Assembly (NCBI GenBank): GCA_037074765.1
Contig: JBAMDO010000047.1
Coordinates: forward strand, 1-64,000
From: Mansonella perstans
Taxonomy: Eukaryota > Nematoda > Chromadorea > Rhabditida > Onchocercidae
Direction of reading: 5' to 3'
Length of the DNA: 64,000 nucleotides
The notes below the pieces were generated by a model. That model had not been told where the DNA came from, ran no database searches, and was given only the letters and a program-made list of their open reading frames with translations. The position numbers were made by a program, and so were the translations under genes. Shown piece by piece: positions 37,688-52,731 of this stretch. Position 1 is the stretch's first letter. Each line of letters opens with the position of its first letter.

Positions 37688-40600
37688 ATGATTCTATCAG
37701 TAATTATCTATATCGTGCACATATTTACGGTCCTGGAATCACAGCCAATTATAAGCTGCTACTTTCAGTAATTTTTCTCTCATAATTTTATAATATATGA
37801 AGCTTAATATAATTATAAAAAAATTTTATTAGTTTACAATCTATCTGATCAGTTAACTTTGCATTTTTAGATAGTATCTATGTATCGTAATTTCACTCAA
37901 AGATTCTTTCTTTAAATACGATTAATATATCACTTAAGGAAAGGAAATCCATCTATAAGTTATTTCGAAGAGGATTTATGCACTCATTATAATCTAATCG
38001 GTTCCTGTACAATCGACGAACATTATCATATTATCCTGCCTAATAGTACCGCAATATCTATTGTGAGAGAATGGTTAAGTGGTCAACATTCACCTTTTAA
38101 GCTGTTGATTACTCTTACACCTGTTAATAGCCGTATGTCACACCTCGTAAGTGAATTCTCTCATTATTTCCGTCGTCTTACTTTATCTTTTAAATAGTAT
38201 CAAACATAATGTTTTGACTGCATCATCTGCTTGAGGCCTTAGTTAGGCACTTTTTTCCGGTGTCTTTTTATTTGAAATTCTCCTATTCTTTTCTTCTTCC
38301 AGTTTTTCCTCATTTTTTTTCCGAATATCTTCTGTTTTGGCACTATCCAATTGTTTTAGCTGTTTTTTATATGATGCCATAGAGCATTTTGAGCTTGAAC
38401 TGTAATTCCTTTTCAATTCTTGAAAATTCAATCAGTCACTTTACTTTTCTAAAATTCCCAAAATGTCTTTTTCCAAAAAATATCTTGATACCTTGCGGTA
38501 GTTCCATTTCAAGTCTTAAATGTAAATGAAATAAAAGAGAAGTAATTTTCTTGTTTTTAGATTAAAAGTAATGAACTAAGAAAAAAACTGGTAGAAGATG
38601 TAACACAGTTCTTGGTGACGAACGAGCTGAATGGTTTCGACATCGACTGGGAATTCCCGGTATGGAGTTGGGATGCACAGCCTACGGATAGACAATACCT
38701 ATCTGTTCTTATCAAAGTAGGCTCTTTGCTCATGATCCTAACAATATCATTGTAATCCACTATTTTTTTTTGAAAAGATATCTTTTTTGAGAAGTTGAAT
38801 CAGTCAAAACAGTTAATGTTTTCCAATCATTTTAGGAACTACGAGAAAGTTTCGATCAAAGCAATCATAATCTATTGCTTAGTGCAGCAGTGGCTGCACC
38901 CGCTACAATAGTTGATAAGGCCTATGATGTTAATTCATTTAACAAGTTATTCTTCTATACTTAATTCTGCTTTTGGATGTTAAACTTAGCTTTCCTATCC
39001 TAAAATTTGTTTCCTATAAAAAAAGTGAACTAGAAATCGTGCCAATAAATTGAATGACTTGTTCAATTTAATTACAAATACAAATATAATATGAGCAATT
39101 ATCAAACAAAACATAGTCGCAGATATACTTCTATAAGCTAGCTTTAAAGCAGCTAATCGTGATGATATATAGCGATTAAATTTAGGAATTGTAAAATTTG
39201 CGAAAAATTCTAAACAAATTTAAGGATAATGTTCTTTTAGATATTTGGACTACGTCCAGATTATGAACTACGATTTCCACATGTACTCTAAGCTGGAACC
39301 TTTCACAGGCTTTAACGCACCATTGTTTCGTAAATTTTACGAAATTGGAATGCTCGGCAAAATGAATTCGGTTAATTTGCAATTGAGCTCGTCATGGAGG
39401 AGTTGTGATATGGAACTTTAAAATGAAATAATCATTGTTGCAGGATTATTCGACGCAACACTGGCTTAAAAAGGGTCTCTGGGCTAACAAGACTATATTC
39501 GGCATACCCACTTATGGACGTGGTTATACACTTCTCAGCAAACATCTTCACTTCCTCTATGCTCCAGCTGTTGGGCATGCAAATATCGGTGCTAGTTATT
39601 CATTCGTTCAGGTATTTTTCATATAAAATGCTAATCAATCACTCTCATACAAAATTATTGTCACATTCTTATCACAATATGAAATGGGTACTGTTGAATG
39701 GCATAGAGCTCATTTATAAAAGTATGGAACAAACTACGAAGTGTTATTTCGCACAATTAAAATCAATTATTCAAATGACAATAGCTTCAGGACTAACAGG
39801 GATGAATTGAATTGAAAATCAGGTGGTTCCTAGAATCATTAGCACAGATGGAAAAAAAAAGCTGTATTGTTCTAGTAAAGAAAGGATAGTATGGAAGGAT
39901 AAATCTAAAAAAAGTCAATGGTTCTTGTTGGTTGGTTTACCTCTTTCTGGGTCAAATGGTCACACAGCTGTCATTTGCTCATTCTAAGCTTGATTTCAAC
40001 AAAAACTTCATTCTCTTTGCCTTGTTTTTTTTTTTTTTTTCTTTTTGTAATTCTTTAAGTATTTCAAAAAATTTCTTTTTGAGGTATGTAATCTAACAAA
40101 AAATTTCTTTTTGAGGTATGTAATCTAACAGAAAAATTTCTTTTTGAGGTATGTAATCTAACAGAAAAATTTCTTTTTGAGGTATGTAATCTAACAGAAA
40201 AATTTCTTTTTGAGGTATGTAATCTAACAGAAAAATTTCTTTTTGAGGTATGTAATCTAACAGAAAAATTTCTTTTTGAGGTATGTAATCTAACAGAAAA
40301 ATTTCTTTTTGAGGTATGTAATCTAACAGAAAAATTTCTTTTTGAGGTATGTAATCTAACAGAAAAATTTCTTTTTGAGGTATGTAATCTAACAGAAAAA
40401 TTTCTTTTTGAGGTATGTAATCTAACATAAAAATTTCTTTTTGAGGTATGTAATCTAACATAAAAATTTCTTTTTGAGGTATGTAATCTAACAGAAAAAT
40501 TTCTTTTTGAGGTATGTAATCTAACAGAAACAAAAAATTATAAATATGTATTTGATGCGAAGACACGATCAGCATATATTTATGGTGATGATCGACAATG

Positions 40601-40955
40601 GTTAGGAGTAGAAAATCCAATAACGATGTATTCGAAAGCGATTTATATGAAAGTATACAACCTTGCTGGTATTATGATATATGATCTGGCATCTGATGAT
40701 TACAAGGTATTATTATTTATTACAAAAATTTTGTAAAATTTAAATTAAGTTTATTTCGTACTTTTTTATTCATTAATTCAGCAGCACATTTAATTTTTTC
40801 AGGGATTATGCAACCAGGGAACATATCCATTGATAAAAGCTGCTAAATTAGCAGCAACACGTAGTGCGAGACAAAAGCAGAAAAAAAACGAATCAATAAA
40901 ATTAAGTATACAATTATTGGAAAAAAATAGTGAAGGAATTATGAAAGAAGTATAA
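37688..40955 (+). CDS. Secreted glycoside hydrolase family 18 (chitinase-like) protein, complete
   Basis: Eight exons: 37688-37767, 37939-38146, 38561-38716, 38836-38945, 39241-39370, 39444-39611, 40512-40706, 40803-40955. They give 399 residues. A hydrophobic signal peptide (1-19) is followed by the GH18 beta-1 motif ISCYF. The catalytic strand is LNGFDIDWEFP, with Asp123, Asp125 and the proton-donor Glu127; the first Asp of the usual DxxDxDxE is Asn120, which family patterns tolerate. VQIMNYDFHMYS (about 190-201) is the MxYD motif. KTIFGIPTYGRGY and GIMIYDLASDDYKGLC complete the barrel. There is no chitin-binding domain; the C-terminus is a basic tail. Likely substrates are chitin-type N-acetylglucosamine polymers, as in the nematode eggshell, pharyngeal cuticle or microfilarial sheath. 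Activity is inferred, not shown. Exon 7 begins at the last copy of a 33-bp array; using the previous copy (40479) would add 11 residues in frame. Confidence 0.88.
40064..40528 (+). repeat. 33-bp tandem array containing repeated 3' splice sites
   Basis: GAGGTATGTAATCTAAC occurs 14 times, at 40081, 40113 and then every 33 bp to 40509. The unit is AAAAATTTCTTTTTGAG plus GTATGTAATCTAACAG. The copies are nearly perfect; the first spacing is 32 bp, and two copies carry TAA (40428-40430, 40461-40463) where the others read GAA. The array fills the end of the intron before exon 7 of the GH18 gene. Its last copy provides the acceptor and the first residues (VCNLTE) of that exon. On the reverse strand it gives an unbroken repetitive frame because 33 is a multiple of 3. 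Confidence 0.95.
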
Positions 40956-48692: not shown

Positions 48693-50120
48693 TTATTTCT
48701 CCGCCAATTCAACCATTACATGTATCAAAACGAAAAATTCTAAACAAGTACGTAGCACTGTTATTGCCCAGATTTGCAGTGGTATTTGAGTGATAAAGCA
48801 TAGTATCAGTAATATATTGGCGAAATTGCAAGCTTCAGAATTTGGTGAGAATATGGCTGGAAGGAATAGTACCAATGCAATTATGTTGAATACTAATGCA
48901 AAGTAGTCAAAGTATAAATGCATTCGGATAATTCGGCAATTGAAAGTTAACAGCGCACGTAAAAGACCAGTGGCCATCACCATGATTACCTGCGAATGAC
49001 CATTTACTTGTAGATTACAATAGCATTTGAAAAAAATGTGAAGGAGTCAATCAGTCAGTGTGTCATTCGACCAAATGGCTTGTTGTCGAAAAAATTCAAA
49101 TTTTTTCTTTTGTTTAATTTGTTGTTCTGGCATTTCGCGTGAATTCCACGCAGCCCCGTGAATTCCACGCAGCTCTACAGCTATCAAGTATTACGACTGC
49201 ATTTCTTTGGAAGTATTAATTCACAATACTTACCACATCGTAGGCTGACAAGACAAACAGCAATATGGTGTGTGTTATAACTGAATTGTAGGACATTTTG
49301 AGTGGTGGCCATAGTCTGTAACATTTTTTTGCAAAATTCAGCGATATCGACATGCGTCAGGTGGGAATCGACCGCCATCGATTGCTTGGAAGGCAACCAT
49401 GCTGACCATTAACCATGACGCATCAAAAATTTGAAAAATTAAGTTGAAATTATAATTGACTTACTGCCAGACTCCCCCATTGTATAAACGTAGTATAATT
49501 GCAATGATCATAAAAAAAACGTAAATGTATTCAAAGACAGCAACAGTTGTACAACCACCACGAATAAGACAGGAAGACAAGCAACACAATGGCTCCAACT
49601 GCAAGTGACGCTCGCGAATCCTGAAGGTATTCAGAATATTCCGGAATAGGATCGAATACCGGTAAATGAAGTAATTTTAGATATGTAAGTTTTAACTTGC
49701 AATCTGAATTGATGTATCTTATTGTGTTAAGAATGTATGTAGTCAGCAAAAAAATATAAGAATAGATGTAAAATACTTACTTGGAGTTAAATGGTATAAC
49801 TTTATTACTTTTCTTCTGCCGACGATTCCGGACTGAGATTGCCGATATTCCCCATACTGTATTCTGTGGCGATACTGCAGCAAAACAGTGCAATTTCCAA
49901 TTACTTGAAGTAATTTTGTGAAGTAATATTAGGTATAAAAGAAGATTATATGGGAAAAAAATTGAAGGCAGTAGAGTAGGCAAATTCGTTCATCGGCTCT
50001 AAATGACTGAATTCGATCAGCACGGAATTCCCGTGAATTGAGTGATCTTTGAGATCTAGTTGATCTCATGGATTTTGTTTCTGTACTAATAGGCAACCAT
50101 AATTTTTTGGAATGAATCAT
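48693..50120 (-). CDS. Four-TM-type membrane protein, copy A (best-preserved copy; 5' end uncertain)
   Basis: Unrecognised nematode-type multi-TM protein. Exons (minus): a first exon beginning at ATG 50118-50120 behind a CTTAG acceptor, ending at 50087 or 50024 (both phase 1); 49781-49874; 49465-49620; 49234-49315; 48693-48989. All later phases agree. The third exon has CCLSSCLIRGGCTTVAVFEY followed by a TM segment, similar in layout to LAPTM4-like four-TM proteins. Exon 4 gives a second TM. The 98-residue last exon gives two more TM segments and ends VMVELAEK. The overlapping single-frame translation through 49531-49749 is an intron-reading shadow. Further 5' coding (GDLWFQAGHGCEISPV, about 50155-50205) may belong to it, so the true start is open. 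The intron between exons 3 and 4 contains a tRNA-Gly pseudogene. Confidence 0.62.
49353..49421 (-). pseudogene. tRNA-Gly(UCC) pseudogene
   Basis: 69 nt, clearly homologous to the intact tRNA at 52011-52082 and in the equivalent intron. It keeps the anticodon loop CTTCCAA. It has lost bases in the D arm, has a broken T stem (GGCGG against CCACC), and has a mismatch at the end of the acceptor stem (GCGTCAT/CTGACGC). Confidence 0.85.
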
Positions 50121-50586
50121 CTAAGGTACAGGAAACAAATATCTTACCAGAATGACTGCAATGACGGGCGAAATTTCGCAGCCGTGACCAGCCTGGAACC
50201 ACAGATCGCCGCTCTGTACGTTCTTCGGACGTCTCGATGGTTTTTATGTTCCCACCTGTCACTTTTATGCTACTTGCTAATGCCCATTAGTCTTTCTACT
50301 ATCTTCGTTATTTTCCTTTTTCTTAATTGTCATTTTGGAAGTACTCACACTGATTAAGTACTTCAATGATAAGCATTAAAACTGACCTTAAAATGATCTT
50401 ATCAGACATAACCGAAACAGTTACCACACCACATTACCAGGTAATACTGAGCATTTAAGTTACGACAGATGGATGAATGAAAATATGCAAAGAGCACTTA
50501 CTTGTTGGTTGATTGGTCGTATGGGTCTTTGCCATCCGTCACCGATTTTCCTTTTTCCTTCACCCAAAACATATGGCACTTAAAAT

Positions 50587-50904
50587 AATTGTCAACCATA
50601 TATTATTACGATAAATGGCAAGATCCTCAGGCAGTAGGTAATTGTCAACCATATATTATTACGATAAATGGCAAGATCCTCAGGCCGTAGGTAATTGTCA
50701 ACCATATATTATTACGATAAATGGCAAGATCCTCAGGCCGTAGGTAATTGTCAACCATATATTATTACGATAAATGGCAAGATCCTCAGGCCGTAGGTAA
50801 TTGTCAACCATATATTATTACGATAAATGGCAAGATCCTCAGGCCGTAGGTAATTGTCAACCATATATTATTACGATAAATGGCAAGATCCTCAGGCCGT
50901 AGGT
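50587..50904. repeat. Six-copy 53-bp tandem array at the palindrome centre
   Basis: Six head-to-tail copies of a 53-bp unit starting AATTGTCAACCATATATTAT, at 50587, 50640, 50693, 50746, 50799 and 50852. The first differs from the others by one base (GGCAGTAGGT against GGCCGTAGGT). The array begins exactly at the inner end of arm A. Confidence 0.97.
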
Positions 50905-51441: not shown

Positions 51442-51833
51442 TATTTTAAGTGCCATATGAGCAATCAACCAACAATCTTTTTCCACATTTTCATTATCCA
51501 TCTGTCGTCAGCTAAATGCTCATTATCTGGAATATGGTCTAGTAATTGTTTTGGTTATGTCTCATAAAATCAATTTAAGGTCAATTTTAATGCTTATCAG
51601 AGTATTTAATCAGTGTAAGTATTTCCTAAAAATTGTACCATTTAACTTCAAGTAAGTATTTTACATCTATTCTTATACTTTTTTGCTGACTACATACATT
51701 TTTAACACAATAAGATACATCAATTCAGATTGCAAGTTAAAACTTACATATCTAAAATTACTTCATTTACCGGTATTCGATCCTATTCCGGAATATTCTG
51801 AATACCTTCAGGATTCGCGAGCGTCACTTGCAG

Positions 51834-52731
51834 TTGGAGCCATTGTGTTGCTTGTCTTCCTGTCTTATTCGTGGTGGTTGTACAACTGTTGCTATCTTTG
51901 AATACACTTACGTTTTTTTTATGATCATTGCAATTATACTACGTTTATACAATGAGGAAATCTGGCAGTAAGTCAATTATAATTTTAATTTAATTTTTCA
52001 AATATTTGATGCGTCAGTGGTGTAATGGTCAGCATGGTTGCCTTCCAAGCAATCGACGGGGGTTCGATTCCCCCCTGACGCATGTCGATATCGATGAATT
52101 TTGCAAAAAAATGTTACAGACTATGGCCACCACTCAAAATGTCCTACAATTCAGTTATAACACACACCATATTGCTATTTGTCTTGTTAGCCTACGATGT
52201 GGTAAGTATTGTGAATTAATACTTCCAAAGAAATGCAGTTGTAATACTTGATAGCTGTAGCACTTGCAGAACTGCGTGGAATTTACGCGAAATGCCACAA
52301 CAACAAATTAAACAAAAGAAAAAATTTGAATTTTTTCGACAACAAGCCATTTGGTCGAATGACACACTGACTGATTGACTCCTTCACATTTTTTCAAATG
52401 CTATTGTAATCTACAAGTAAATGGTCATTCGCAGGTAATCATGGTGATGGCCACTGGTCTTTTACGTGCGCTGTTAACTTTCAATTGCCGAATTATCCGA
52501 ATGCATTTATACTTTGACTACTTTGCATTAGTATTCAACATAATTGCATTGGTACTATTCCTTCCAGCCATATTCTCACCAAATTCTGAAGCTTGCAATT
52601 TCGCCAATATATTACTGATACTATGCTTTATCACTCAAATACCACTGCAAATCTGGGCAATAACAGTGCTACGTACTTGTTTAGAATTTTTCGTTTTGAT
52701 ACATGTAATGGTTGAATTGGCGGAGAAATAA
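51834..52731 (+). pseudogene. Four-TM-type membrane protein, copy B, 5'-truncated
   Basis: Exons equivalent to A's last three: about 51812-51967 (or from the internal acceptor, 51834-51967), 52120-52201 and 52435-52731. All three retain open frames and splice sites, and the last exon encodes the same 98 residues as copy A. The first exon and all but the last 16 or so bases of the second (51638-51653) are missing, so a normal product cannot be made from this copy. It is either a recent pseudogene or has acquired a different 5' end. The frame ending WWLYNCCYL at 51901 is a shadow through the intron. Confidence 0.6.
52011..52082 (+). tRNA. tRNA-Gly(UCC)
   Basis: 72 nt with a full cloverleaf: acceptor stem GCGTCAG/CTGACGC, discriminator A, D arm with AATGGTCAGC, anticodon arm GTTGC-CTTCCAA-GCAAT (anticodon TCC), and T arm GGGGG-TTCGATT-CCCCC. 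There is no intron. Box A (TGGTGTAATGG) and box B (GGTTCGATTCC) are intact. It lies sense-oriented inside an intron of four-TM copy B. Confidence 0.96.

Follow-up and report, generated by a model that had tools for sequence, protein, structure and literature searches.

A tandem 33-bp array at an intron–exon boundary of a filarial GH18 gene, best filed as a boundary minisatellite

A 33-bp unit bearing splice signals is repeated in tandem at the start of exon 7 in a GH18 (chitinase-like) gene of the filarial nematode Mansonella perstans. We hold with moderate confidence that this array is a local minisatellite lying across an intron–exon boundary, that it is probably neutral, and that mature mRNA is made mostly from the last of its junctions, at 40512. 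It is best filed with the boundary minisatellites, a kind formerly described in amphioxus and now seen in a filarial nematode. Positions refer to the window, meaning the whole 64-kb stretch of DNA that was analysed, and a slash within a motif marks the splice junction. The gene and the array comprise the following features.

37688–40955, + strand: GH18 (chitinase-like) gene model, eight coding exons, 399 aa
37688–37767, 37939–38146, 38561–38716 and 38836–38945, + strand: exons 1–4, from in-phase spliced translation
39241–39370, 39444–39611 and 40803–40955, + strand: exons 5, 6 and 8, from in-phase spliced translation
39612–40511, + strand: intron 6, 900 nt when acceptor 14 is used
40512–40706, + strand: exon 7 (VCNLTETKNYKYVFDAK...), beginning at the last array junction
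40067–40530, + strand: minisatellite array, period 33, 14.1 copies, 99% matches, score 907 (Tandem Repeats Finder)
40084, 40116, 40149, 40182, 40215, 40248 and 40281, + strand: AG/GTATGT junctions 1–7, read junction by junction
40314, 40347, 40380, 40413, 40446, 40479 and 40512, + strand: AG/GTATGT junctions 8–14, read junction by junction
40413–40478, + strand: array units 11 and 12, with G→T at unit position 16, turning GAA into an in-frame TAA
40065–40073, + strand: CAAAAAATT, the left one of two 9-bp direct repeats on either side of the array; the right one is at 40531–40539

The spliced translation of the gene model is free of internal stops, which suggests that enough correct splicing takes place; the model is least secure at the ends of exons 1 and 2. 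The encoded protein matched Pfam PF00704 (E = 4e-51), and its best solved relative was chitotriosidase-1 (E = 2.8e-44). A database search returned 58 proteins, with filarial ones as the best matches: relatives P0001–P0007 showed 69–80% identity over 88–94% of the query, and identity amounted to 80% for Acanthocheilonema viteae, 78% for Wuchereria bancrofti, 77% for Litomosoides and 76% for Elaeophora. Elsewhere in the assembly, eleven GH18 exon matches were found on one contig (G000:C35:231524-262693), probably a cluster of paralogues, and the window gene lies apart from them.

Exon 6 ends in ...TTCAG and exon 7 opens with GTATGT, while AAACAAAAAATT lies beyond the array units. The start of exon 7 was examined in an alignment of the window protein with 14 relatives picked from the 58 database matches (15 rows). 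Cys286, two residues into exon 7, was invariant in all 15 proteins, V285, N287 and L288 were kept in 90% or more of them, and none of the 14 aligned relatives carried an 11-residue insertion before Cys286. The invariant cysteine and the uninterrupted relatives thus point to the last junction, 40512, as most likely the ancestral start of exon 7. In the raw genome sequence, the match to the Pfam profile begins at 40509, so that protein comparison and profile search agree on an exon start at 40512. Two other readings of the boundary were rejected. With CTAACAG at 40528 as the acceptor, exon 7 would lose its phase (17 nt) as well as the invariant cysteine; an interpretation of the array as a coding repeat is contradicted by the TAA that read-through would meet in units 11 and 12 and by the finding that 0/14 aligned relatives have an 11-residue repeat at this point. 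As a separate observation, the Toxocara canis relative (P0009) contains a 65-residue stretch matching exon 7 twice in tandem at the same point as the array, which may represent an exon duplication, a merge of isoforms or an assembly error.

The array measures 464 bp in total, and AG/GTATGT is present at 14/14 junctions, in line with the fourteen near-identical 33-bp units that had been predicted in front of the GH18 exon. The predicted composition of the unit was likewise borne out: each repeats a 3′ splice site, the first bases of exon 7 and a donor-like GAG/GTATGT, with CTAAC some 20 nt before the next AG. The first junction interval is 32 bp and the remaining 12 are 33 bp, giving 428 nt between the first and the last junction. 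Ten of the 13 inter-junction units (2–10 and 13) are identical, hence we consider the array to be recent. Every variant between 40084 and 40511 falls at unit position 16, the G of CTAACAG, and amounts to about two events only: this G is absent from unit 1, which is therefore 32 bp long, and is replaced by T in units 11 and 12, confirming the GAA-to-TAA change reported for two copies. The motif GAGGTATGT...ATCTAAC had 14 matches in the 75.7-Mb assembly, all within the array (reversed control, 0), and TTTTTGAGGTATGT had 15, of which 14 were in the array and a single one elsewhere. Since the unit motif is absent outside the array and TTTTTGAGGTATGT recurs only once, the array most likely arose locally. 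The flanking direct repeat CAAAAAATT, which is present also at 40097 at the junction of units 1 and 2, might possibly have triggered the first duplication, an argument weakened by its seven occurrences on the + strand of the window. The sole match of an Rfam scan of the window at gathering thresholds was a tRNA.

These features describe a tandem minisatellite whose unit spans an exon–intron boundary, as located by protein conservation, and carries AG/GT signals; with its duplicated AGGT-bearing segment the array also has one of the features of intron gain by tandem duplication. In NAGNAG-type tandem acceptors the alternative sites are a few nucleotides apart, and the spacing of 32–33 nt places the array outside that class.

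We infer from the sequence how the array was duplicated, how it is spliced and that it is neutral. The minisatellite would have expanded in situ, through tandem duplication of a piece that spans the 3′ boundary of intron 6 and comprises its pyrimidine tract, the GAG and the opening 16–19 bases of exon 7, and the extra copies would now belong to intron 6. In most mature mRNA, exon 6 would be joined to 40512, either directly or via re-splicing. Junction 13 would give rise to a minor form longer by 11 residues (VCNLTEKFLFE), and the remaining junctions to truncated products, which the cell would probably degrade. We regard the array as most likely tolerated, not built for a purpose.

The computed products of single-step splicing fit the claim that only the last two acceptors give full-length protein: acceptor 14 (40512) yields 399 residues and acceptor 13 (40479) yields 410, the +11 residues being the predicted VCNLTEKFLFE, while the other 12/14 (acceptors 1–12) give truncated products. 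The original prediction that each further copy adds 11 residues in frame holds for the 33-bp spacing, but acceptor 1, with 428 nt extra, is out of frame. In the structure modelled for the A. viteae relative (22 sequences; mean pLDDT 89.5), the insertion point falls between residues 285 and 286, inside helix 283–289 and beside the conserved cysteine, and for this reason the 11 added residues look disruptive.

The signals around the junctions offer little to set one acceptor apart from another. In acceptors 3–14 the junction follows the branch-like A of CTAAC at a distance of 21 nt, and in acceptor 2 at 20 nt. For C. elegans, branch points are believed to sit near −20, and TTTTCAG is the consensus of the acceptor (PMC12709185; PMC4889670). 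The array acceptor reads TTTTGAG against this consensus. GAG is a weak acceptor, and as it is common to all 14 copies, no sequence mark singles out the last acceptor as the winner.

Such a row of equivalent sites could also be explained by self-correction, which we judge possible but rather unlikely. An upstream junction would often be taken first, CAG/GTATGT would be recreated, and further splicing, in a single step or several, would take out the remaining units, with many routes leading to the same mRNA by recursive splicing through zero-length exons. A recursive splice site consists of a pyrimidine tract directly followed by AG/GT, and use of its acceptor recreates a donor. The array shares this arrangement, and its combined acceptor–donor TTTCTTTTTGAG/GTATGT matches CAG/GTAAGT at 7/9 positions in place; it differs from recursive splice sites in its short intron, its many tandem sites and in being known as sequence alone. 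Joining exon 6 to any array junction would produce CAG/GTATGT, a donor matching 8/9 positions of CAG/GTAAGT, whereas the seven real donors in the GH18 model match at 5–7 of 9, and this difference favours re-splicing. The + strand of the window has 3025 9-mers with GT in the donor position, of which three score 8 and none scores 9. Enumeration with an assumed minimum intron of 40 nt, under which neighbouring junctions (33 nt) fail and those 66 nt or more apart pass, returned all of acceptors 1–12 (12/12) as re-spliceable to the canonical 399-aa product. The upstream acceptors, for which truncated products had been predicted, thus give such products in a single step but need not be dead ends, as each recreates a donor and is potentially re-spliceable. 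Folding is consistent with self-correction as well: the array RNA was less stable than all 100 shuffles (z +3.2), with no stable hairpins seen within the array in that comparison, so its splice sites are probably exposed. However, recursive splicing is known from very long introns, and intron 6 has just 900 nt. Many of the re-splicing routes are moreover unproductive, an open full-length frame being found for 113/364 of the one-step routes enumerated, some of which carry extra units, and among the matches listed from open-licence PMC no title or abstract opening presented recursive splicing or a boundary array in a nematode. That the array forms a ladder of 14 near-identical acceptor–donor sites in a 900-nt intron, in which splicing to one of the first 12 could still be corrected afterwards, has in our estimation a low probability.

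A regulatory role, in which the array would act as a splice-site slippage device and alternative junction use would set the balance between full-length (13, 14) and truncated (1–12) transcripts, appears improbable. The division of the single-step products into 2/14 full-length and 12/14 truncated ones would suit such a device, and in C. elegans the choice between acceptors a few nucleotides apart shifts with stage and tissue (PMC12709185). Nevertheless, nothing in the analysis shows conservation or selection, the stops go back to one substitution common to two adjacent units, and the residues added at the start of exon 7 would, judging from the structure model, rather disturb the protein. That the array is an assembly artefact or has a wrong copy number is very improbable, because units 1, 11 and 12 carry position-specific variants and the flanking sequence does not resemble the units, even though 464 bp exceeds typical short reads and one amphioxus array of this kind appears wrongly assembled in the draft genome (PMC3087553).

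The preferred reading as a tolerated boundary minisatellite has its closest counterpart in amphioxus, where boundary-spanning tandem repeats in globin and Adh3 genes, called 'mirages', contain many AG/GT signals and are unstable in length, and where RT-PCR, like earlier work on Adh3, suggested that they leave regular splicing undisturbed (PMC3087553). Both systems have near-identical units across a real 3′ (or 5′) boundary and potential cryptic AG/GT sites. The unit is 33 bp long in the GH18 array, compared with 10–72 bp in amphioxus Adh3 and about 150–160 bp in the globins, and the GH18 array is set apart by its occurrence in a nematode, its 14 mostly identical copies and a spacing that mostly keeps the frame. 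It is from amphioxus that variable length and undisturbed splicing are reported, whereas the GH18 array is known from one assembly. In the potato RdRp gene, one boundary duplication became a new intron whose donor came from the exonic part, with RNA-seq support (PMC4974935). The two cases are alike in that a duplication crosses an intron–exon boundary with its tract and AG and the copied stretch supplies a GT donor; potato RdRp represents one duplication, while the GH18 array has 13 extra junctions and its inter-unit introns are only potential.

The assembly was surveyed for three splice-like 8-mers, each sought as a run of three tandem copies; the counts are lower bounds, and the matches fell at 10 loci. 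Tandem triples of AGGTATGT gave at least 14 matches at three loci (reversed control, at least 2) and those of TTTTCAGG at least 10 matches at five loci (reversed control, 0), whereas AGGTAAGT gave at least 4 matches at two loci against at least 33 for its reversed control; two words were thus above their controls and one was far below. Four of the 10 loci could be placed at coding boundaries, namely the window array and the following three.

G000:C24:122384-122441 (L017 1500-1557): three AAG/GTATGT junctions 25 bp apart, after an exon
G000:C293 (L069 1500-1667), − strand: array of 43 bp × 4 that runs up to the start-exon acceptor TTTTTTCAG/GTAAAGATG
G000:C129 (L030 1466-1571): four tandem donors after an exon, the exon being supported by an open frame only

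The C24 gene had two database matches, in W. bancrofti and Onchocerca flexuosa; both relatives join the exons at the first donor, with the flanking residues connected without insertion. The W. bancrofti match carries a precomputed Pfam PF10475 assignment, which we take to be the Vps54 domain, and neither a direct Pfam scan nor a PDB search with the C24 fragment gave a match. The start exon at C293 belongs to the Ras family (Pfam E = 1.8e-32), presumably a CDC42-like gene, and its acceptor could be a cis or a spliced-leader acceptor. For the C129 exon, no match was obtained in Pfam or in a further database search. C97 looks like a degenerate repeat, and so does C127, judged from the repeat table alone. 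C72, C42 and C164, whose sequences were read, are survey loci outside the four placed at coding boundaries, and C377 is a further one, judged from its matched letters alone. With three further short boundary arrays in the genome, the GH18 array is not a one-off.

Array density was assessed in 114 kb, consisting of the 64-kb window, which had been chosen for one array, and five 10-kb stretches. Two arrays in the 114 kb combined a period of at least 20 with six or more copies and 99% matches, and both lie in the window; all arrays in the 50 kb outside it were less regular. The lack of such arrays outside the window, together with the excess of two of the three splice-like words over control, makes neutrality less well supported, and the neutral reading of the GH18 array leans on the absence of functional signs more than on a measured background. 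The second long array of the window (50586–50904; 53 bp × 6, 99% matches) has no recognised exon boundary in it. Around it, near-identical open frames on opposite strands (49461–49776 and 51656–51971) constitute an inverted repeat about 2 kb apart, which may be a mobile element. Independently, a COX1 profile search of the assembly returned 20 partial matches (on C25, C85, C98 and others), many with stops under the standard code, and no full-length gene; the partial COX1-like matches are perhaps nuclear or bacterial-derived fragments.

The array extends boundary minisatellites from amphioxus to a filarial nematode and holds raw material for intron gain. If upstream choices were indeed corrected by further splicing, the genome's tolerance of boundary minisatellites would rest on AG/GT self-correction. 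Ten of the 14 acceptors (3–11 and 14) are preceded by an identical 33-base unit, and acceptors 2, 12 and 13 differ by one base. Owing to this near-identical context, the value of the array lies in a natural test of acceptor choice and of re-splicing, that is, of whether a nematode spliceosome prefers the first or the last of such sites or accepts any of them, and whether it re-splices wrong choices.
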